From Gammaproteobacteria bacterium (GTDB taxonomy: Bacteria; Pseudomonadota; Gammaproteobacteria; JACCYU01): a DNA stretch of 43,852 bases. The notes beneath the pieces are model-generated. The model did no database searches. It was not told the DNA's origin and saw only the letters and a list, made by a program, of their open reading frames with translations. The position numbers and the translations under genes are program-made. The stretch is from NCBI GenBank assembly GCA_013696315.1, contig JACCYU010000099.1, positions 1-43,852 of the forward strand, written 5' to 3'. Shown here in pieces: positions 75 through 11,636 of this stretch (the first letter of the stretch is position 1; every line of letters starts with the position of its first letter).

Positions 75-998
75 TCAAGTCCGACAGGCTGCTAGTCTGA
101 GAAATGCACGCAACGCCATGCCGATATGATTGCGTTGCGCTTTGGCCGCGCGCACCTGCGCACGCTCGACGCCGCAGAACTGCTTGATGCCACGATGATA
201 ATTCTCAATCGTCCATGCGAAGCCCGCAAAGCGGACGCGCGCCACCTCACTCATCTGCAAGTCATTGGTTGCCCACCACTCAAAGTCGCCGTCTGGGGCG
301 ACAAGCTTGAAGAGGCGAATCCAACCATAGCCTTTCAGATGCACGATACAGCCTCGCGCATCGGTCGCAATCAGCGAGACGGCGCGCAAGCCTGTCCGAT
401 CCGGGTTCACCAGCCGGTTCGACTTCAGCCGCGTCAGCCATATCCAGCCGAAATCTCGCATGGTTTTCAAGTTTTCGAGGCTAGAGTACCAACTATCAAA
501 GACGACGCAAGCGGGCTGAAAGCCGCGCTCACAGGCCGCCTGCAACATGGCCTGGAAGTGATCGTTCTTGGTCAACTCATCATTAGCTTTGTCATAGAGG
601 CGGTAGTCACAGGGTACGTGGCGATCGCCGTCCGTCCACAGCAAGGTGATCAGATTGATGCCTTCGACCACCGCTCGATGTTTGCCGGACCAATGGCGCC
701 GCACCAATGCTATTTTCTTGGCGTACGGCTTATCGAGCGTCGAATCATCAACGACGAGGATGCCTGTTGTGCGTTCGACCTGCGGCGCGGCTTCTTGCCA
801 GAGCGTCTCGGCGGCCGGTTCAAGGCGATGCAACAGGCGCGTAAAGGCGTCGTGTGCGGGCGGCGACTCCTCGACGGGCGTGGTGCGCGCCGCTTCAACG
901 CCGGAACAGACGCGCGGTGTGGCGATCAGGAAGTTGATGTAATCTTCGCAACTGACTTTGGCGGATTCATTTAGCTTCTTTACATTAGCGCAGTCCAA
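75..998 (-). mobile_element. IS701-like DDE transposase
   Basis: This 307-residue protein resembles transposases of the IS701/DDE_5 group, which cut and rejoin insertion-sequence ends. The DDE residues can be placed: the first Asp in VVDDSTLDKPYA, the second in VVFDSWYSSLEN, and the Glu in TIENYHRGIKQFCGVERAQ near the C terminus. The C-terminal part looks complete, ending in LRLAACRT and a TGA. The frame opens only at a TTG (998) with no clear ribosome binding site, so the start is uncertain and the N terminus may be slightly short. I could not identify terminal inverted repeats on either side. It stands alone at the left edge of the accessory block and is probably a past insertion. Confidence 0.85.
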
Positions 999-1550: not shown

Positions 1551-3269
1551 ATGATGTCCGACGCAAGCCGCCAGAGAAACGCAGGCGCACGTCTAACCGA
1601 ACGTTTGGGTACCGTGCCAAGGGATACAGTCTCGTATCTCAGCAATTATGCGGCCTTTCTGCTCCTGGAATTTACTGCGCTGGTTCTGCTTCTGACGAGT
1701 ATTCTATTCTTCGCAAGAATCGAAATTACGCCCTACCACGTCGCCGCGGCATTCATTGTCACGTTCCTGACACCGTTCGTCTACCGCAGCAGGCCCGAGA
1801 TACACGGCTCCGTATCTGCAGCAGCGCTTGCATCGTCCTTTGCCCTTCTGTGCATCGCCACCGTAGTGTTCTCAGGCTGTTTCTATGACTTCTCTTTCGA
1901 TGGCCAAGGTTATCGCCAGGAGGCCATTATACAATTGGCCAACGGCTGGAATCCCGTCTACGAACGGGTGCCTGAAGACGTTCAACGCAGCATCTGGATA
2001 AACCACTACTCGAAAGGACCCTGGATAACAGCGGCCGCACTGTACAAGCTCACGGGGAACATAGAACAGGGCAAGACGTTCAACCTGCTTTTGATACTCG
2101 CATCATTCTTTCTGTGTCTATCCGTATTGTTACGTATCAAGCAGATCGACGGCCGGATAGCTTTCATCTTCAGCCTGTTGCTCGCGCTGAACCCCGTCAG
2201 CGTGTATCAAACTTTAACTTTTTACATCGATGGCCAGCTCTCGTCATTGTTGGTCTGCCTGGTGGCCAGCCTAACGGCGATACTCCTCGCAGTGGACAAG
2301 CTTACTCTTGCCTCGTTGAGCTTCGTCATCTTGATCGCGCTGAACGTTAAGTTCACGGCTGTACCCTATGTTGCTTTCATCGGTCTGGGATTTATTGTGG
2401 CCGCGGCGCTCATGGGTAAGACTCGCCCGCTTCGGCGGGCAATATGGGCGAGCATTCTATGTTTTGCAGCAGGCGTGCTTGTCGTTGGCTACAATCCCTA
2501 TGTCACAAATACGCTGTATCACGGACACCCTTTCTTTCCGCTCTTTGGCGAGGGTCATGTAGACATTATGGACGGTCCTAAATCAACGCCGGTGAGCCTC
2601 AGGGGTCTGAACAGAGTAGAAAAGCTTTATCAATCGGTGTTCGCCAAATCGCAAGCTTCCCTCACCGCAGAAACCGAGTTGAAGATTCCTTTAACGGTGA
2701 CTAGCCTAGACGAGATTCGACCCTTCGGGTCGCCTAGCACGCGAATCGGCGGTTGGGGGCCGCTGTTTAGCGGTGTGCTGGTGCTGTCGGTGATTGGACT
2801 GCTGTGGACACTTGTGCGATCGCCTGCTTTGAGGAAGATCGGGCTGATTGTAATGGGCATAAGTGCGTATCTGCTCGCTTCCGCCTTGATCCACGAGGAG
2901 GGATGGTACGCGCGTTTCGCGCCGCAGTTGTACTGTATACCGGTGATTATTACCATGTTTCTGGTGAGTGTGCATGACAGAGTGGCGAACATCGTCGGTG
3001 GCATCGTGGCGGTCGCGCTGACGCTAAACATCCTCACTATTGGCGGAGTTTACCTGTACAAGAATCTCAAATGGAACTACAAGCTGGGTAATCAAATGGC
3101 GGAGCTCGCACGCGTAGATGGAGCGGTTCAAGTATATTTTGGCGATTTCCGCTCGACGCGCGTCAGATTTGAAAAGGCGATCCCTTATAAAGAGGTTAGC
3201 ACTCAGGCGGGCCTGGCCTGTAAAACCCCAATGGAGATCATACATGCCACGGCGCTTGTATGTCCCTGA
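1551..3269 (+). CDS. GT-C-like polytopic membrane glycosyltransferase
   Basis: A 572-residue integral membrane protein with about ten hydrophobic segments (for example residues 34-54, 63-80, 90-110, 180-195, 200-215, 255-285, 297-312, 405-420, 430-445 and 480-500) and a soluble C-terminal tail. After the third segment comes an acidic loop, FSFDGQGYRQEAI around residue 117, in the place where GT-C enzymes (ArnT, PMT, Emb type) carry their catalytic Asp/Glu. GT-C enzymes transfer sugars from polyprenyl-phosphate donors on the outer face of the membrane. A GGAG sequence lies 6-7 bases before the ATG pair. The HAD-UbiA gene downstream, which would make a polyprenyl-phosphate sugar, fits a donor/transferase pair. 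The acceptor is unknown. It could also be an oligosaccharide polymerase-like protein. Confidence 0.65.
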   Translation: MMSDASRQRNAGARLTERLGTVPRDTVSYLSNYAAFLLLEFTALVLLLTSILFFARIEITPYHVAAAFIVTFLTPFVYRSRPEIHGSVSAAALASSFALLCIATVVFSGCFYDFSFDGQGYRQEAIIQLANGWNPVYERVPEDVQRSIWINHYSKGPWITAAALYKLTGNIEQGKTFNLLLILASFFLCLSVLLRIKQIDGRIAFIFSLLLALNPVSVYQTLTFYIDGQLSSLLVCLVASLTAILLAVDKLTLASLSFVILIALNVKFTAVPYVAFIGLGFIVAAALMGKTRPLRRAIWASILCFAAGVLVVGYNPYVTNTLYHGHPFFPLFGEGHVDIMDGPKSTPVSLRGLNRVEKLYQSVFAKSQASLTAETELKIPLTVTSLDEIRPFGSPSTRIGGWGPLFSGVLVLSVIGLLWTLVRSPALRKIGLIVMGISAYLLASALIHEEGWYARFAPQLYCIPVIITMFLVSVHDRVANIVGGIVAVALTLNILTIGGVYLYKNLKWNYKLGNQMAELARVDGAVQVYFGDFRSTRVRFEKAIPYKEVSTQAGLACKTPMEIIHATALVCP

Positions 3270-3648: not shown

Positions 3649-5124
3649 ATGGAGGCAAATGTGCTGGTAACGGCTGAGACTGATGCTGGGGAGTACGAGC
3701 CAATCTGTATCGATCTGGATGGTACTTTTGTCAAGACCGACTTGATGCTTGAGATGCTGCTAAAGGCGGCGGGGCAACACTGGGCAGTCCTGCTTACGGC
3801 GCCAGTATGGCTCACTCACGGTAAGGCGTACTTTAAACAAGAGCTTGCCAAGCGCTGCACGCTGGACATCGCGCATCTTCCCTTTGACGAAGAACTGCGC
3901 TCTTATCTGAAACGTCAACGAGAGCGCGGCCACAGGCTTGTATTGGCAACTGCAGCGGACCGGAAGATTGCCGAAGCCATCGCTGCGGAAGCCGGCATCA
4001 TCGATGAAGTGATCGCCTCGGATGGGATCACCAACCTCAAAGGCGAGACCAAAGCTCGCGTTCTCGAGGATCGCTTCGGCAATCGGGGATTTATCTATGT
4101 CGGCAATGATAGGTGCGATCTTCCGATCTGGCGCAAAGCTAAAGAGGCTGTCGTGGTGAATGCCTCATCATATGTGACCCGCGCGGCCGCCGCAGCAACA
4201 ACAGTCCGTGAGACATTCGCGGCACGGGAGTCATCTCTTGTGCAGTTGCTTAAGGCCATGCGGACCTATCAGTGGGCGAAGAACATTCTTGTTTTTATTG
4301 CGCCACTGACGGCCCTGGTGCTATGGGAGCCCGCCATCGCCCTGGCTTCTTTGGTGATCTTCTTCGCTTTTTGCGCCACCGCCTCGGGTGTTTACATCAT
4401 CAACGACTTGTTGGATTTAGATAGTGATCGCCAACACCCACGTAAGCGATACCGACCCTTCGCTAGCGGTAAGCTCCCGCTCCAATATGGATTGTATGGC
4501 CCGATATTAGTATCGATTGGAATTATTTTTGGCTCGATTGTATCTAGCGAGTGCGGCTTGGCGATCGTTACTTACGCGGTTTTGTCGATCGCCTATTCCG
4601 TTTCACTCAAAAAGAAACCGCTTATCGATGTTTTCGTCCTTGCGAGCCTCTATTCTCTACGATTATTGACCGGGGGACTTGCGACCGACGTCAGTGTATC
4701 GACATGGCTCCTGAGTTTTTCGAGCTTTCTATTTCTGGCTTTAGCGTTTTTGAAGCGAACCGCAGAATTGGCGGCTCTGCGTTCAGAGGAGAAGCGGAAG
4801 GTGTCGGGACGCGGCTATGGCGCTTCTGACCTTTCAATGCTTAAAGTCATGGGCGTGGCGTGCAGTTTTGTTTCCAGCCTTGTCCTCGCGCTTTACATAG
4901 ACAGTACTACAGCTCGGACAATATACGCCAATCCGAATGTCCTTTGGGGAATCGTGCCTCTGATCCTTTTCTGGCAATGTCGGCTATGGCTGTCTACCGC
5001 TCGCGGCCGAATGCACGACGATCCGATCGTCTATGCTGCCAAGGACCGCATATCCTGGTTGATTTTTGGCTTGATCATGGTGATTTTTGGAATCGCGAAC
5101 TTAGATGGTATACCGTGGGGGTGA
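3649..5124 (+). CDS. HAD phosphatase-UbiA prenyltransferase fusion
   Basis: A 491-residue two-domain protein. Residues 15-190 form a HAD-type hydrolase: DLDGT with the nucleophile at D22/D24, LATAADRK as motif II, and GNDRCDLPIW carrying the motif IV acid. Residues 205-491 form a UbiA-type membrane prenyltransferase: a MRTYQWAKN entry motif, the Mg-diphosphate motif NDLLDLDSD at 252-260, then KRYRPFASG and about eight membrane segments. The UbiA half resembles mycobacterial Rv3806c, which joins phosphoribosyl diphosphate to decaprenyl phosphate. The HAD half could remove the 5-phosphate to give polyprenyl-phosphoryl-ribose. The next intact gene encodes a DprE1-like oxidase, the following step of that pathway, which supports this role over quinone or heme prenylation. 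The ATG is preceded by weak GTGAATGGAGG spacing. Confidence 0.85.
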   Translation: MEANVLVTAETDAGEYEPICIDLDGTFVKTDLMLEMLLKAAGQHWAVLLTAPVWLTHGKAYFKQELAKRCTLDIAHLPFDEELRSYLKRQRERGHRLVLATAADRKIAEAIAAEAGIIDEVIASDGITNLKGETKARVLEDRFGNRGFIYVGNDRCDLPIWRKAKEAVVVNASSYVTRAAAAATTVRETFAARESSLVQLLKAMRTYQWAKNILVFIAPLTALVLWEPAIALASLVIFFAFCATASGVYIINDLLDLDSDRQHPRKRYRPFASGKLPLQYGLYGPILVSIGIIFGSIVSSECGLAIVTYAVLSIAYSVSLKKKPLIDVFVLASLYSLRLLTGGLATDVSVSTWLLSFSSFLFLALAFLKRTAELAALRSEEKRKVSGRGYGASDLSMLKVMGVACSFVSSLVLALYIDSTTARTIYANPNVLWGIVPLILFWQCRLWLSTARGRMHDDPIVYAAKDRISWLIFGLIMVIFGIANLDGIPWG

Positions 5125-5199: not shown

Positions 5200-5590
5200 C
5201 GGTGAGAATTTGACTGTGCGGTGCTCACTAGAGGCAGGGGCAACCCAAACTTCTCGCAAGTCTTCTTTAGTGAGCTCAAGATTCCCGAGCCTCGCTACAG
5301 CCTCGAATTCGGTTCGCTTTGCCTCGGCGCGCAGACCGGCCGCATGCTGCATGCCGTTGAGCCTTCCCCGGTTTGCGAGAAGCCGGGTTGGGTGGTTTAC
5401 GGCGGTACCAACTCCACGCTTGCCGACAGGCGCAACCTCCGCGTCGCCCCCGTTGAAGCCGGCCTGCGCTCTTGGTCTATCCTCGATCTGGTGGTCCTCG
5501 CCGGGCTCGCGGAAGAGCTGCGGAATCGGTATCGCCGTACTGTTGATCCTGTGCTTGGCGACCTAGCCCGACCACTCAAGAGCGTACGCG
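5200..5590 (+). pseudogene. wecB: UDP-GlcNAc 2-epimerase fragment
   Basis: A remnant of the N-terminal third of a WecB-type UDP-N-acetylglucosamine 2-epimerase. The frame reads FSQVFFSELKIPEPRYSL, then GAQTGRML, VVYGGTNSTLA and VEAGLRSW, matching in order the conserved sequence of the family up to the EEINR region (here AEELRNR) and a trace of SDLL (here GDLARP). The true start (VxGARPQF region) and everything after about residue 150 are missing, and GDTNST has become GGTNST. It cannot encode an active enzyme. It lies between the UbiA gene and the oxidase-aminotransferase ORF and its end overlaps the start of that ORF, suggesting that a deletion or insertion placed these genes side by side. 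Confidence 0.85.
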
Positions 5591-5596
5591 CAAGGG

Positions 5597-8488
5597 ATGA
5601 TGCACAAGGCGGTTAAGCTGCACGGCTGGGGTCGGGTCAGTGGTGGCCTGACCTCGGTTACGTTGCCGGAGACGCGCGCCGAGGCCATCGAGGCCATGCA
5701 CTCCGCCCGAGACGGCACGGCGATCGCCTTCGGGGGCGGACGCAGCTATGGCGATATGGCCCTCAATAGCCATGGCCGGGTCATCCTCACCACACAGCTG
5801 AATCGGATCCTGTCATTTGATTCCGCCAATGGAGAGGTAGTCTGCGAACCGGGCGTCACCTTTCACGAGCTCCTGCGCGAATTCCTTCCCTTCGGTTTTG
5901 CCGCGCCGGTGAGCCCCGGCACGGGCTTCGTCACCATCGGCGGGGCAGTGGCAAATGACGTGCATGGCAAGAACCACGACGTCGCCGGGAGCTTCGGGGA
6001 CCATGTCCGCTGGATCGATCTGCTGCTGCCTTGCGGGGACACCGTGCGCCTCTCACCCAAGGATCGACCCGAGTGGTTTAACGCCACGATCGGCGGCTTG
6101 GGGCTCACCGGCATCATGCTGGCGGTCTGCTTTACACTGCGGCGTGTACCCACGAACGCCGTCCGGGTCGAAGAGCGACGGATCCCTGACCTGGAAGCCT
6201 TCTTCGCGGCCTTCGAGACGGCACGCACGCGTTGCACCTATTCGGTGGCTTGGATCGACGCATTGGCCGGGGACGCTCGCCTAGGCCGCGGTATTCTAGA
6301 GACCGCAGAGCACGCCGACGCTGCGCTATCGAGGTCACCACCGCGGCGAGTAAGAGTGCCCTTCGACTTCCCCGCCGCCGCGCTCAATCCGTGGACTGTG
6401 CGCGCCTTCAACGCCCTGTACTATCGCCGGGTGCCTCCGTCAGGCCGTCGGGTCGATCGCCTGATCGACCAATTCCTCTATCCGCTCGATGCTATCCTGG
6501 ACTGGAACCGCCTGTACGGCCGGGCCGGTTTCTACCAGTTCCAGTGCGTGGTGCCCGAGGCAGACAGCCACCGGGCCATCCGGCGCCTCTTAGGGGAGGT
6601 CGCCAGCGCCCGAGCCGCCTCGTTTCTAGCCGTGCTCAAGACCCTCGGCGGCCAGAGCCAAGGACTGCTGTCGTTCCCAATGCGCGGCTACACGCTGGCG
6701 CTGGATCTCCCCAGGCGTCCAGGGACTGAGCGGCTCATCGCCCGCCTGGGCGGAATAACACTCGATTATGGCGGGCGTGTCTACCTCGCCAAGGACGCCT
6801 GCCTGCCAGGCGAGCTGTTCCAAGCCATGTATCCCAAGCTCGATCGCTTCCGCGCGGTGCTGGACGAGTTGGACCCACACGGGCGCATGAGCTCGGACCT
6901 CTCACGCCGCCTCGGGGTCCGAGGGCAACAAACTCTGTCTCCTGTAGTACTGGACAATTCAACCTTGGGCCGTTCAAATAGAAGGTGCGGGCCAATCCTT
7001 CCCGCTAGGCAAGCTATGAGCATGACTGTAACGCGAGAAAACATTAACGATCGGCAAGCGCCAGGCGGCCGGGTGGCAATTGTCAAACCTGGGCTGTTGA
7101 CCGTGGAAGATGCCAAAAAGCTGAGTGTGGCGGAGACCACCGAACTTTTTCGCGATCATGTGAACCCCGGCCAGCTCCATTTCCTCAAACTCTTGGGATT
7201 CAATGAGGTCGTCGTCGAGAGCGCCGAAGGCATGTATTACACGGATAAGCGCGGTCGCAGGATCCTCGACTTCTTCGGGGGATTCGGCTCACTCGCGCTC
7301 GGGCACAATCACCCGCACATCCTGGCGGCGCGCAAGCGATTTCAGGATGAGAAGCGCCACGAGATCGCTATCGCCTTCATGTCTCAGTACGCCAGTGCCC
7401 TATCCAAGAACCTCGCCAGCATCGCACCGGGAGACCTGGACATGGTGTTCCTCGGCTCCGCGGGCTCAGAGGCCGTCGAGGCGGCGCTCAAACTGGCGGA
7501 GAAGGTTCAGGGACCGCGACGTTCCACGGTTGCATATGCCGAGCGTTCCTTCCATGGCAAGTCGCGCGGAGCCCTGTCGGTCACCGATTCCGACTTCTAC
7601 CAGTCGACCTTCCGGCTTTTGGATAATCGTGTCCGCATTCCCTTCGGTGACGCAGCCGCACTCGAAGCGGCGCTCCAGCGCGATCATTCGATTGGTATCC
7701 TGATTCTGGAGACGGTGCAGGGCGGCGCCGGGGTCGTCCTTGCAGCTCCCGGCTACTGGCAGGAGGTTCGCCGGCTGTGCGATCGTTACAATGTGCTTTG
7801 GATCGCCGACGAAGTGCAATGCGGGGTCGGACGCACGGGCCGCTTCTTTGCGTTCGAGCACGAAGAGGTGGTGCCGGACATCGTCACGCTGGCCAAGTCG
7901 CTCGGGGGCAGCAAGGCAGCTATCGGCGCCATTATCGCCCGGCGCCCGCTCTACATGACGGCCTACGGGACGCCCAAGACCGCCCTCATCCACGGCCCGG
8001 CCACCTTTGGAGGCATGGGGGAGACCTGTTGCACCGCGATCGAGGCCCTGAACGTCCTCTACGACGAAGGGCTCATCGACAACAGCGCAACGCAAGGCGC
8101 CTACCTCCTGGAGCGGCTGCGCAGAGTACACCGCAGTTATCCACAGATCTTAAAGGAGGTGCGTGGTCAGGGACTCATGGTAGGGGTCGAGTTCCAAGAC
8201 TTCAGCCAGACCCTGCCATTCGGCCTGCGCAGCATTGTCTCCGTTCTCGACGACAAGCTCCGCGGCAGTCTGTGCGGCTTCGTCGGCAGCCTGTTGCTGA
8301 AGGACCACAATATCCTGGTGGCCTTCACCGAGTACAACCGTAACGTCATCCGGCTCGAGCCCCCGCTCATCGTTACGCGCGAGCAGATCGAGACCTTTGT
8401 GGCGGCGCTCGATGAGGTCCTCTCCCGCGGGATCACCCGCATCATTACCGACTACGCGAAGAACTTTCTGCGCAAGAGCCCTGGATAG
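5597..8488 (+). CDS. DprE1-like FAD oxidase fused to class III aminotransferase
   Basis: A 963-residue ORF with two enzymes. Residues 1-440 align with mycobacterial DprE1, which oxidises the 2'-OH of decaprenyl-phosphoryl-ribose: FAD motif AFGGGRSYGDMAL, then GGAVANDVHGKNH, SFGDHVRWIDLL, WNRLYGRAGFYQFQ and a terminal SSDLSRRLG. The active-site lysine corresponding to Lys418 is present (YLAKDA, K399); the position of Cys387 is alanine (A368). After about 33 nondescript residues, residues 474-963 form a complete class III PLP aminotransferase: FLGSAGSEAVEAA, ADEVQCGVGRTG with D738, and the PLP lysine K767 in LAKSLGG. An internal ATG at 7016 could start the second enzyme separately, but its ribosome binding site is poor and no stop intervenes. 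An AAGGG precedes the first ATG. Together the enzymes could convert a hydroxyl on a lipid-linked sugar to an amine. Confidence 0.85.
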   Translation: MMHKAVKLHGWGRVSGGLTSVTLPETRAEAIEAMHSARDGTAIAFGGGRSYGDMALNSHGRVILTTQLNRILSFDSANGEVVCEPGVTFHELLREFLPFGFAAPVSPGTGFVTIGGAVANDVHGKNHDVAGSFGDHVRWIDLLLPCGDTVRLSPKDRPEWFNATIGGLGLTGIMLAVCFTLRRVPTNAVRVEERRIPDLEAFFAAFETARTRCTYSVAWIDALAGDARLGRGILETAEHADAALSRSPPRRVRVPFDFPAAALNPWTVRAFNALYYRRVPPSGRRVDRLIDQFLYPLDAILDWNRLYGRAGFYQFQCVVPEADSHRAIRRLLGEVASARAASFLAVLKTLGGQSQGLLSFPMRGYTLALDLPRRPGTERLIARLGGITLDYGGRVYLAKDACLPGELFQAMYPKLDRFRAVLDELDPHGRMSSDLSRRLGVRGQQTLSPVVLDNSTLGRSNRRCGPILPARQAMSMTVTRENINDRQAPGGRVAIVKPGLLTVEDAKKLSVAETTELFRDHVNPGQLHFLKLLGFNEVVVESAEGMYYTDKRGRRILDFFGGFGSLALGHNHPHILAARKRFQDEKRHEIAIAFMSQYASALSKNLASIAPGDLDMVFLGSAGSEAVEAALKLAEKVQGPRRSTVAYAERSFHGKSRGALSVTDSDFYQSTFRLLDNRVRIPFGDAAALEAALQRDHSIGILILETVQGGAGVVLAAPGYWQEVRRLCDRYNVLWIADEVQCGVGRTGRFFAFEHEEVVPDIVTLAKSLGGSKAAIGAIIARRPLYMTAYGTPKTALIHGPATFGGMGETCCTAIEALNVLYDEGLIDNSATQGAYLLERLRRVHRSYPQILKEVRGQGLMVGVEFQDFSQTLPFGLRSIVSVLDDKLRGSLCGFVGSLLLKDHNILVAFTEYNRNVIRLEPPLIVTREQIETFVAALDEVLSRGITRIITDYAKNFLRKSPG

Positions 8489-8859: not shown

Positions 8860-10197
8860 ATGAAGCAGCACCCTATTGTCGTCATCGGCGGCGGTTACGC
8901 CGGTTTGCTTACCGCACGACAGCTCGCGGCAGCGCAGATCCCATTTACTTTGTACGAAGCATCGAAAAACATCGCCGGTCTCGCCTCTACGTTCAAGGAT
9001 GTCGAAGGTTACAGCTACGACTTTGGGACCCATCTCATTACCAACCGGCTGGCGCAGACGCTGGGCGTCGACGCGCGATGCCGGGATGTTGAGTATTTCG
9101 GTGAAAGCGTGGTTCTCCACGGCAAGGTCTACAGCTATCCATTCGGTCTCATTACCGTCCCGAAATTCTGCTTGAGCGCACTCAAGCAGCGCTTGAGCGG
9201 CGCACCCGATGGAGCCGCGCTGGATGCTGCGGCCTGGGCCGAAGCGGCTTTCGGTCGCGACCTCGCCCGCGAGGTCGCGATTCCGCTCATGGAGAAGCTG
9301 ACAGGCGCCTCAGCCGCGGAGCTGTCGCCGACGATCAGCAATAAGCTGCCCAATGTCCTGCGGACGGTAATGCTGCGCATTGCTGGGCGTCTCTCGCGCA
9401 AGGCGGTGGCGATCGGCTACTGCCAGGATCTGCCAGAGAAGGCGAGCGTCTGGCATGCCTACCCGACAGGTGGGATCGCGATGATTTGTGAGCACCTGCT
9501 GGAAGGCATCGATGGCAATGTCAAGCTCGAATCCCCCGTCCAGAAGATTCACGTGGAGAATGGCGCTGTCGTCGGCGTCGATGTGAATGGCCAGACCCAA
9601 CCCGCTGCCGCGGTCGTCAGTACAGCACCGGTGAACGTTCTGCCGAGACTGATTTCCGGTACGGACCGCCTCGAGTACTTGAAGGAGTTTCGCTACAGCA
9701 ACATGATTTTCGTCAATTTGTTCCTCAACGGCCGAAACCTGATGCCCAACGTGGCGGTGTGGTTCCCGGAAAAACAGTATGACTTCTTCCGCGTGCAGGA
9801 GCCGCCCATCTGTCTGCCTTGGACGGCTCCCGAGGGCCAGACCTATTTCACCGTCGATATTGGCTGTCATGTAGGGGATCAACACTGGAGTGCGGATGAC
9901 GAAGCGCTCGCCGCGACGTGTCTCGACCAGCTCCAGTCCGTCGTACCCGACATCAAGTCACGTTATAGAGGCGCGCGCGTATTGCGCACTAAGATTGCTT
10001 ATCCTGTTTACCTTCTTGCCTACGAGGAAGAACGGAAGAGTTTCTCACGCGACTCCGGTCTCAAAGGTTTGTACAGTGTCGGGCGAAATGGCGAATTCGC
10101 CCATATTCTGATGGAAGACGTCTACCTCCGGACCACCCAGCGGGTCGGCAGGATGATCGAGGATCTTAACCGCATTCCCGGCCAGCGTTTCCACTGA
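8860..10197 (+). CDS. FAD-dependent amine-oxidase/PPOX-fold oxidoreductase
   Basis: A 445-residue soluble flavoprotein. The N terminus has a Rossmann dinucleotide-binding motif, VVIGGGYAGLLTARQ, followed by the acidic end of beta-2 in LYEASKNIAGLAST. YDFGTHLIT matches the second conserved flavin contact of the amine oxidase/protoporphyrinogen oxidase/UDP-galactopyranose mutase superfamily. A C-terminal GLYSVGRNGEFAHILMEDV matches the region that closes over FAD. Start choice rests on AGAGGTC about nine bases before the ATG. Homologues often occur in cell-surface sugar clusters as well as in heme and carotenoid synthesis; the neighbours here favour a sugar or lipid-linked intermediate as substrate. 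The actual substrate cannot be read from the sequence. The methyltransferase follows after 26 bp and is probably co-transcribed. Confidence 0.8.
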   Translation: MKQHPIVVIGGGYAGLLTARQLAAAQIPFTLYEASKNIAGLASTFKDVEGYSYDFGTHLITNRLAQTLGVDARCRDVEYFGESVVLHGKVYSYPFGLITVPKFCLSALKQRLSGAPDGAALDAAAWAEAAFGRDLAREVAIPLMEKLTGASAAELSPTISNKLPNVLRTVMLRIAGRLSRKAVAIGYCQDLPEKASVWHAYPTGGIAMICEHLLEGIDGNVKLESPVQKIHVENGAVVGVDVNGQTQPAAAVVSTAPVNVLPRLISGTDRLEYLKEFRYSNMIFVNLFLNGRNLMPNVAVWFPEKQYDFFRVQEPPICLPWTAPEGQTYFTVDIGCHVGDQHWSADDEALAATCLDQLQSVVPDIKSRYRGARVLRTKIAYPVYLLAYEEERKSFSRDSGLKGLYSVGRNGEFAHILMEDVYLRTTQRVGRMIEDLNRIPGQRFH

Positions 10198-10223: not shown

Positions 10224-11054
10224 ATGTCCGTTGCTCAATCACGGCCGGTCCTGCTCGGATCGCGCTACCTCCCGAGCCACCAAGAAAACCGCATGAAAAA
10301 TGAGGGCGGCGTCGAGTACGCTCGCAAGTTGTTCTACGACGGCATCAATCCGAATCTAGTGTTCTTGCTGAACAATCGCTTTCTCTGGATGCAGAAATTT
10401 ATCGATCCGCAGAAAAGCTGCGGTATCGAAGTCGGCTGTGGCCAAGGATATGGCAAGGATATATTGCAGGCTAAATCATACTTACTCACCGATTGCGCAG
10501 ATCACGAATGGCTAGACGTCAAACATGTCGATGCGCTCAGCACGCCTTTTGAGAACAATGCCTTTGATTTCGTCGTCGCGTCGAACATGATTCATCATGT
10601 ACCCTTCCCGATAGTTTTCTTTAAAGAAATGCAGCGCATCCTCAAGGTGGGCGGACGAATGCTGATCCAGGATGTGAACTGTTCGCTGTTGATGCGCGTC
10701 ATGCTCCATCTCATGCGTATCGAGGGCTATTCTTACGATGTCAATGTGTTCGACCCGAACACACCGGCCAACGACACCCAAGATCTTTGGTCCGGGAACA
10801 ATGCGGTTCCCAACATGCTATTCGACGATGAGGATCGCTTCCACCGGGAAATTCCGTTCTTCCGCATTACCGATCGAGGGTGCAGTGAGGTATTGGCGTA
10901 TCTGGTGAGTGGCGGCGTTACCGCCAAAACCTTCTTTATCCCGTTGCCACGATGGGTGCTTCAGACCTTAAAATGGATCGATGATGGGTTGACAACGCTC
11001 GCGCCGCAGATCTTCGCGCTCCAGCGCCGGATAGTACTCGAGCGTGTTGCCTAG
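10224..11054 (+). CDS. class I SAM-dependent methyltransferase
   Basis: A 276-residue protein with the Methyltransf_11 fold. Motif I is GIEVGCGQGYG, the acidic loop and motif II follow at LDVKHVDALSTPF, FDFVVASNMIHHV is the post-II region and RILKVGGRMLIQDV is the motif III region. The C-terminal half (about 130 residues) is more variable and contains hydrophobic stretches near the end, so it may associate with the membrane. GAAGGAG lies nine bases before the ATG, the best ribosome binding site of the cluster. It is 26 bp after the flavoprotein gene, so the two probably form one transcript. Likely a modifying enzyme for the sugar, lipid or glycan made by this block; the target is unknown. Confidence 0.85.
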   Translation: MSVAQSRPVLLGSRYLPSHQENRMKNEGGVEYARKLFYDGINPNLVFLLNNRFLWMQKFIDPQKSCGIEVGCGQGYGKDILQAKSYLLTDCADHEWLDVKHVDALSTPFENNAFDFVVASNMIHHVPFPIVFFKEMQRILKVGGRMLIQDVNCSLLMRVMLHLMRIEGYSYDVNVFDPNTPANDTQDLWSGNNAVPNMLFDDEDRFHREIPFFRITDRGCSEVLAYLVSGGVTAKTFFIPLPRWVLQTLKWIDDGLTTLAPQIFALQRRIVLERVA

Positions 11055-11291: not shown

Positions 11292-11636
11292 ATGAATGCA
11301 TGGTTTATCCTATTCTTCGTGGCGTTCATCAACAGCATAGCCGGCCTGCTGCTTAAGCAATCGCGCGTGGTCGCAGAGGGGAGTTCATTGTTCTTGCTCG
11401 TGTACTCGCCCTGGTTTATCGCGGCATGTCTATGTTACCTGGTCAATACATTTCTGTTCGCCAAGGCCCTGGATTACCTGCCAGTCTCCTTGGTCTATCC
11501 AGCCTACGCCGGAGCCGGTTTCGCGCTTATCGCCATCGCGGGCAACTACCTTTTCGGAGAGCGTTTGGGCATGCACCAGTGGCTCGGCATCGTGCTAATC
11601 GCAGCCGGTATACTGACGGCCTCTCGAGGGCAGTGA
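11292..11636 (+). CDS. SMR/EamA-type small transporter (ArnE-like)
   Basis: A 114-residue protein with four membrane helices (about residues 3-20, 33-55, 62-85 and 93-110). It resembles half-size EamA/SMR transporters, including the ArnE/ArnF subunits that flip undecaprenyl-phosphate-aminoarabinose. YPAYAGAGFALIAIAG followed by GERLGMHQWLGIVLI is the classic pattern of helices 3 and 4. A Glu in helix 1, as in EmrE (Glu14), is absent; this favours a lipid-sugar carrier over a cation/drug antiporter. Such proteins dimerise. GAGGTGATC lies upstream of the ATG. In this cluster it is the natural candidate to move the polyprenyl-phosphate sugar across the inner membrane for the GT-C-like transferase. 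That role is inferred from context. Confidence 0.75.
   Translation: MNAWFILFFVAFINSIAGLLLKQSRVVAEGSSLFLLVYSPWFIAACLCYLVNTFLFAKALDYLPVSLVYPAYAGAGFALIAIAGNYLFGERLGMHQWLGIVLIAAGILTASRGQ

Follow-up and report, generated by a model that had tools for sequence, protein, structure and literature searches.

DprE1 and DprE2, which form the mycobacterial decaprenyl-phosphoryl ribose 2-epimerase, are among the closest described counterparts of the locus analyzed here. Another is the Arn pathway to undecaprenyl-phosphate 4-amino-4-deoxy-L-arabinose, in which amination takes place on the nucleotide sugar and is carried out by another aminotransferase family. Kelly et al. (2024, PMC11127046) describe three-component systems as well: undecaprenyl-phosphate ribofuranose is the product of a HAD-UbiA protein, an ArnE-like transporter is the proposed flippase and a GT-C enzyme uses the donor. 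Which pentose results in these systems depends on tailoring enzymes that are expected to work on the sugar while it is bound to the lipid: an SDR (ORF13) leads to xylofuranose and DprE1/DprE2 to arabinofuranose (PMC11127046). The text of this paper mentions ArnE and has zero occurrences each of "aminotransferase" and "transaminase". A literature search whose range left most subscription journals outside brought up no paper that visibly places an aminotransferase in one pathway with DprE1 or with polyprenyl-phosphoribose synthesis.

In the window (the whole 43,852-nucleotide stretch of DNA that was analyzed), a DprE1-like oxidase and a class III aminotransferase are encoded by one ORF (Table 1). 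The locus resembles the DprE1/DprE2 system in the DprE1 fold, in the residues checked and in a UbiA-type synthase nearby, but the window lacks DprE2 and has the fused aminotransferase instead. With the three-component pentofuranose systems it shares the HAD-UbiA synthase and the predicted tailoring of a lipid-linked pentose, and it has candidates for the ArnE-like transporter and the GT-C enzyme, whereas the tailoring reported there is by the SDR (ORF13) and DprE1/E2 (PMC11127046). The features in common with the Arn pathway would be a predicted lipid-phosphate aminopentose, a candidate ArnE-like flippase and a candidate GT-C enzyme, but amination here would be on the lipid-linked furanose. 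Our proposal, which we hold with about even confidence, is that polyprenyl-phosphoribose metabolism has a so far undescribed branch, where a class III aminotransferase takes over the position of DprE2 as partner of DprE1; the outcome would be a lipid-linked 2-amino-2-deoxy-pentofuranose, which would provide surface glycans with a positively charged furanose. This pairing would have arisen with two DprE1 clades and would in one of them have become a single tethered enzyme.

Table 1. Features of the fused gene and its surroundings, in positions of the window.
Feature	Position	Strand	Evidence or remark
Transposase (DDE_5, DDE_Tnp_1)	75-998	-	Window edge, adjoins sugar cluster
572-aa protein, polytopic by eye, candidate GT-C transferase	1551-3269	+	Place and length only
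HAD phosphatase-UbiA fusion, candidate polyprenyl-phosphoribose synthase	3649-5124	+	PRK08238, 573 bits vs cutoff 351; HAD and UbiA Pfam
UDP-GlcNAc 2-epimerase (WecB) fragment	5221-5616	+	Epimerase_2, 37.2 bits, ~85 of 347 model positions
CDS of fused protein	5597-8488	+	ATG start, 963 aa; fused homologues L005, L006
DprE1-like FAD oxidase domain, residues 1-443	5597-6925	+	Pfam, alignment, residue check, PDB 4p8m match
Linker, residues 444-494 (predicted unstructured 445-493)	6926-7078	+	Linker analysis, structure model
Internal ATG, residue 474, possible secondary start	7016-7018	+	No good Shine-Dalgarno-like motif before
Class III aminotransferase domain, residues ~495-963 (~469 aa), PLP lysine K767	7079-8485	+	Pfam, residues, PigE/YgjG structure matches
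Flavin amine oxidase-like protein	8860-10197	+	Between fusion and small transporter
Methyltransferase	10224-11054	+	Between fusion and small transporter
Small EmrE/ArnE-like transporter, candidate flippase of lipid donor	11292-11636	+	Multi_Drug_Res, 38.9 bits vs 23.7

The fused frame runs through 963 codons with zero internal stops. Pfam places FAD_binding_4 at residues 21-153 (E 2.7e-22) and ALO at residues 383-438 of the protein, and Aminotran_3 (PF00202) at residues 538-942 (E 5.2e-81, 272.8 bits versus a cutoff of 30.5). When the predicted structure was compared with solved ones, the oxidase half matched M. tuberculosis DprE1 4p8m (Z 49.8, rmsd 1.8, 406 aligned), and the aminotransferase half, which is of the PigE/YgjG type, found its closest solved structures in PigE 4ppm (Z 51.2, rmsd 3.1, 439 aligned) and YgjG 5h7d (Z 51.1, rmsd 1.6, 420 aligned). 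ORF, Pfam and structure matches agree with the earlier note that a DprE1-like oxidase and a class III aminotransferase occupy one 963-codon frame. The oxidase scored 405.5 bits against the NCBIfam DprE1 equivalog NF053785, below its cutoff of 500, and we therefore call it DprE1-like; DprE2-linked proteobacterial oxidases (L010, L012, L081 and L082) likewise fell below this cutoff, at 371-415 bits. PigE, of the prodigiosin pathway, resembles the fused protein in being long (861 aa) and was matched in its C-terminal half, the partner domain being unmatched. The window protein differs from both PigE and the putrescine aminotransferase YgjG in scoring far below the two NCBIfam equivalog cutoffs (374.4 bits against 850 and 320.9 bits against 612, respectively).

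M. tuberculosis DprE1 positions were placed on the window protein by reading an alignment. Y60, H132, K134, Q334, Q336, K367 and K418 (M. tuberculosis numbering), which we take to be FAD or substrate contacts of DprE1, are unchanged in the window protein and throughout the 25 DprE1 rows of multiple alignment A2. These seven positions are the same in DprE2-linked and aminotransferase-linked oxidases. In the aminotransferase half, the PLP lysine K767 together with D738 and E705 was invariant in all 17 rows, so that the checked catalytic residues are retained in both domains and the active sites appear intact, as had been claimed. Position 387 of M. tuberculosis DprE1, the benzothiazinone cysteine (C387), corresponds to window residue 368 and differs there, being alanine in the window and altogether in 18 of the 25 DprE1 rows. 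Threonine was found at this position in the other seven, which belong to the alphaproteobacterial aminotransferase-linked clade (L008, L009, L067, L068, L070, L071 and L074). The predicted structure of the whole protein (39-row alignment, mean pLDDT 85) consists of two well-folded domains, and its low pTM (0.53) means that the relative placement of the two is not fixed by the model. We think it rather likely that this is a genuine bifunctional enzyme.

The HAD-UbiA gene precedes the fused ORF at a distance of less than 0.5 kb, and the small transporter lies 2.8 kb from this ORF. A flippase role is tentatively assigned to the small transporter, whose match to the ArnE model has an E-value of 9.5e-8 but only 32 bits, below the cutoff of 92. 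The candidate GT-C protein had no Pfam or NCBIfam match, and this assignment, made from its place and length, is likewise tentative. A WecB fragment, which looks like a gene remnant, follows the HAD-UbiA gene and overlaps the start of the fused ORF. The amine oxidase-like gene and the methyltransferase gene were considered as pathway members and rejected, having no homologues at the other loci compared.

We further checked the occurrence of DprE2 and of the aminotransferase (scored as orthologous at 400 bits or more) across 48 DprE1 loci, several from the same genus, that were left after removal of 34 locus ids repeating other loci. A DprE2-type short-chain reductase was present in none of the 16 loci with the aminotransferase and in 29 of the 32 without it, aminotransferase loci being over-represented in these counts because the fusion served as the query in finding the loci. 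Of the three exceptions, L063 does have the aminotransferase, truncated at the end of the contig; the genome of L074 has its aminotransferase in L007; and the contig of L022 ends beside DprE1. Fisher's test gave p 4e-10 on the raw table, without correction for phylogeny, a value that is only a guide because the rows share ancestry and the search was aimed at aminotransferase loci. Genome-wide, no DprE2 was found at E<=1e-15 in any of 12 genomes with the aminotransferase, including the window genome, and all three DprE2-locus controls were positive. Judged from these gene distributions, the aminotransferase appears to replace DprE2, which is also missing from the window locus. Phylogenetic analyses placed the DprE1s of alphaproteobacterial aminotransferase loci in another clade than that of the window, and the nearest outside relatives of the window DprE1 are DprE2-linked, for example L010 and L011. 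Since two DprE1 clades are associated with the aminotransferase, the exchange of DprE2 for it may have happened twice.

The usual order in Alphaproteobacteria is HAD-UbiA, DprE1, an EamA-type small transporter, an extended SDR and the aminotransferase, often with a further large ORF; the SDR and the transporter were confirmed by Pfam in the examples tested. UbiA genes are near DprE1 in most other loci too, and no UbiA match was detected within the 21 kb of L006. The extended SDR (GGDGFVG, Epimerase Pfam) was seen, for example, at 10751-11770 of L065, at 1707-2738 of L005 (minus strand), and in L008, L009 and L014, the last of which has it beside DprE1 and DprE2 without the aminotransferase. 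It may be a further epimerase of the lipid-linked pentose. As a general pathway member it was rejected: it occurs in only 10 of the 16 loci with both aminotransferase and DprE1 (L005 and nine alphaproteobacterial or same-phylum loci), and is absent from the window, from L006 and, within the window's class, from the four separate gene pairs in this count. The best match in the window genome has 25% identity, and a close extended SDR is lacking there.

Besides the window, the same fusion was found in L005, from a gammaproteobacterial MAG (956 aa, 72% identical to the window; the same match as G175 and counted once), and in L006 (957 aa, 63% identical), whose MAG was assigned to Thermodesulfobacteriota by binning. 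The junction that the earlier note had asked to compare among homologues is thus fused at three distinct loci. Of 395 genomes surveyed in the phylum of L006, that of L006 alone was a carrier at the cutoff applied, which makes transfer or misbinning likely. In the survey of the window's class (369 genomes), the aminotransferase was detected at E<=1e-100 in at least four (the window genome, G175, G206 and G212), a lower bound because two candidates were scored per genome; the family- and order-level surveys comprised three genomes each for the window and two for G175. Searches of viral contigs gave no match, and none of 64 phage records covered 80% of the query, the best one being annotated as putrescine aminotransferase. 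Separate adjacent genes for the two proteins were found in five genomes from two families of the window's class (G206 and G379; G212, G394 and G397), with intergenic gaps of 28, 31, 20, 20 and 47 nt, and in every one of these genomes the reading frames of DprE1 and the aminotransferase differ. The window and L005 were sisters in the aminotransferase (88/95), DprE1 (94/93) and concatenated (94/99) trees. When the far outgroup was left out of the aminotransferase tree, all three fused forms grouped together (81/77); L006 was unplaced in the DprE1 and concatenated trees, where a single fused clade was not rejected (AU p 0.448 and 0.147). The fusion probably arose by in-frame joining of an adjacent gene pair in one ancestor of the three forms.

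The earlier note gave the linker about 33 residues, a count that reaches only to the internal ATG it had correctly pointed out (residue 474). The full span between the DprE1 end motif and the conserved VEDAK of the aminotransferase is 63 residues, and residues 445-493 have pLDDT under 50. These ~49 unstructured residues suggest, on the structure model, co-localisation of the two domains rather than a tunnel. Between the same motifs the linkers of L005 and L006 have 56 and 59 codons, and the three sequences are unalike. GC3 drops from 0.78 to 0.51 in the window linker and its codon log-odds lie under every flanking stretch of the gene; in the fused genes in general, GC3 is lower in the linker, and linker codon usage is not coding-like and differs from that of the flanking domains. 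The linkers therefore look like former intergenic DNA kept open, in line with the resemblance to translated intergenic sequence noted before. At their own base composition, the probabilities of an open frame are 0.068 for the window, 0.244 for L005 and 0.031 for L006, with a product of 5e-4 if independent, which related genes are not fully.

Two other readings concern the joining and its product. Recent loss of a stop codon, as the earlier note had suggested, or an assembly error could have joined two genes, and both the existence of separate relatives and the intergenic look of the linker fit this. The same fusion is, however, present in three separate assemblies, and its frames are still open at 63-72% identity; moreover, since the two genes are in different frames in all five separate pairs, stop loss alone could not have fused them. 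Frame offsets and fused homologues argue against recent stop loss, and joining by either route is highly improbable. The other reading holds that the DNA is fused but that two proteins are made, or the fusion plus a free aminotransferase from an internal start, in which case coupling would be by the operon and not by a tether. Every linker contains Met (474 and 476 in the window, 469 in L005, and 446, 480 and 497 in L006), and linker codon usage is unlike coding sequence. A perfect AAGGAGG lies ten bases ahead of a TTG in the L005 linker (7828-7930), and GAGGAG occurs just ahead of ATG 446 in that of L006 (9630-9750). Against this, no comparable Shine-Dalgarno-like site precedes the window ATGs at 7016 or 7022, and each of the three diverged linkers is open in one forward frame only, with stops in both others. 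We regard production of a free aminotransferase as unlikely.

If a single bifunctional chain is made, a pathway can be proposed. The HAD-UbiA protein would, by its family, make polyprenyl-phosphate ribofuranose from PRPP. Conserved residues and fold suggest that the DprE1 domain would then oxidize the 2-hydroxyl to a 2-keto sugar, as mycobacterial DprE1 does. The tethered PLP aminotransferase would turn this ketone into an amine, in place of the reduction to arabinose by DprE2; when DprE2 is missing, the aminotransferase half is the only evident enzyme to use the ketone that the DprE1 half makes. The product would be polyprenyl-phosphate 2-amino-2-deoxy-pentofuranose in the ribo or arabino configuration and would serve as donor for surface glycans. 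As the neighboring genes suggest, the small ArnE-like transporter would flip this lipid donor and the GT-C enzyme would transfer the amino sugar to a periplasmic glycan. The ~49-residue disordered tether may keep the reactive 2-keto lipid near the next enzyme. Class III aminotransferases are generally dimers, and the fused enzyme would thus carry two oxidases on one aminotransferase dimer. The functional coupling via a keto intermediate anticipated in the earlier note is well supported, less by the fusion than by the aminotransferase in DprE2's place. A lipid-carried amino-pentofuranose pathway with a bifunctional enzyme, its chemistry read from sequence, is in our judgment fairly probable.

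The chemistry could also be different. YgjG and PigE, the nearest class III aminotransferases, act on terminal aldehydes or amines and are not known to act on ring ketones, so a 5-amino product has to be considered: the oxidase could turn the lipid-linked pentose into a 5-aldehyde or a 3-ketone, from which the aminotransferase would form the 5-amino or the 3-amino sugar. However, the seven checked DprE1 positions are unchanged between aminotransferase-linked and DprE2-linked oxidases and the window oxidase groups with the DprE2-linked L010 and L011, both of which argue for the same C2 chemistry and make another regiochemistry unlikely. We consider it quite unlikely that the aminotransferase acts on another sugar or lipid of the cluster, with the fusion only fixing expression or place. 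The extended SDR, another enzyme of the sugar type, is indeed present in most other aminotransferase loci, but the window genome is without a close one, and the mutual exclusion with DprE2, both locally and genome-wide, also speaks against a separate substrate.

If the 2-amino pathway is true, amination joins the arabino and xylo epimerisations as a tailoring of lipid-linked pentofuranoses. DprE1 without DprE2 but with this aminotransferase would serve as a genomic marker, and the farnesyl-phosphate substrates of the known systems would be usable for assaying the pieces. The single-chain enzyme is suited to asking whether a reactive 2-keto lipid is handed over. For the organisms concerned, a cationic furanose would be predicted on the surface glycans of some proteobacteria.
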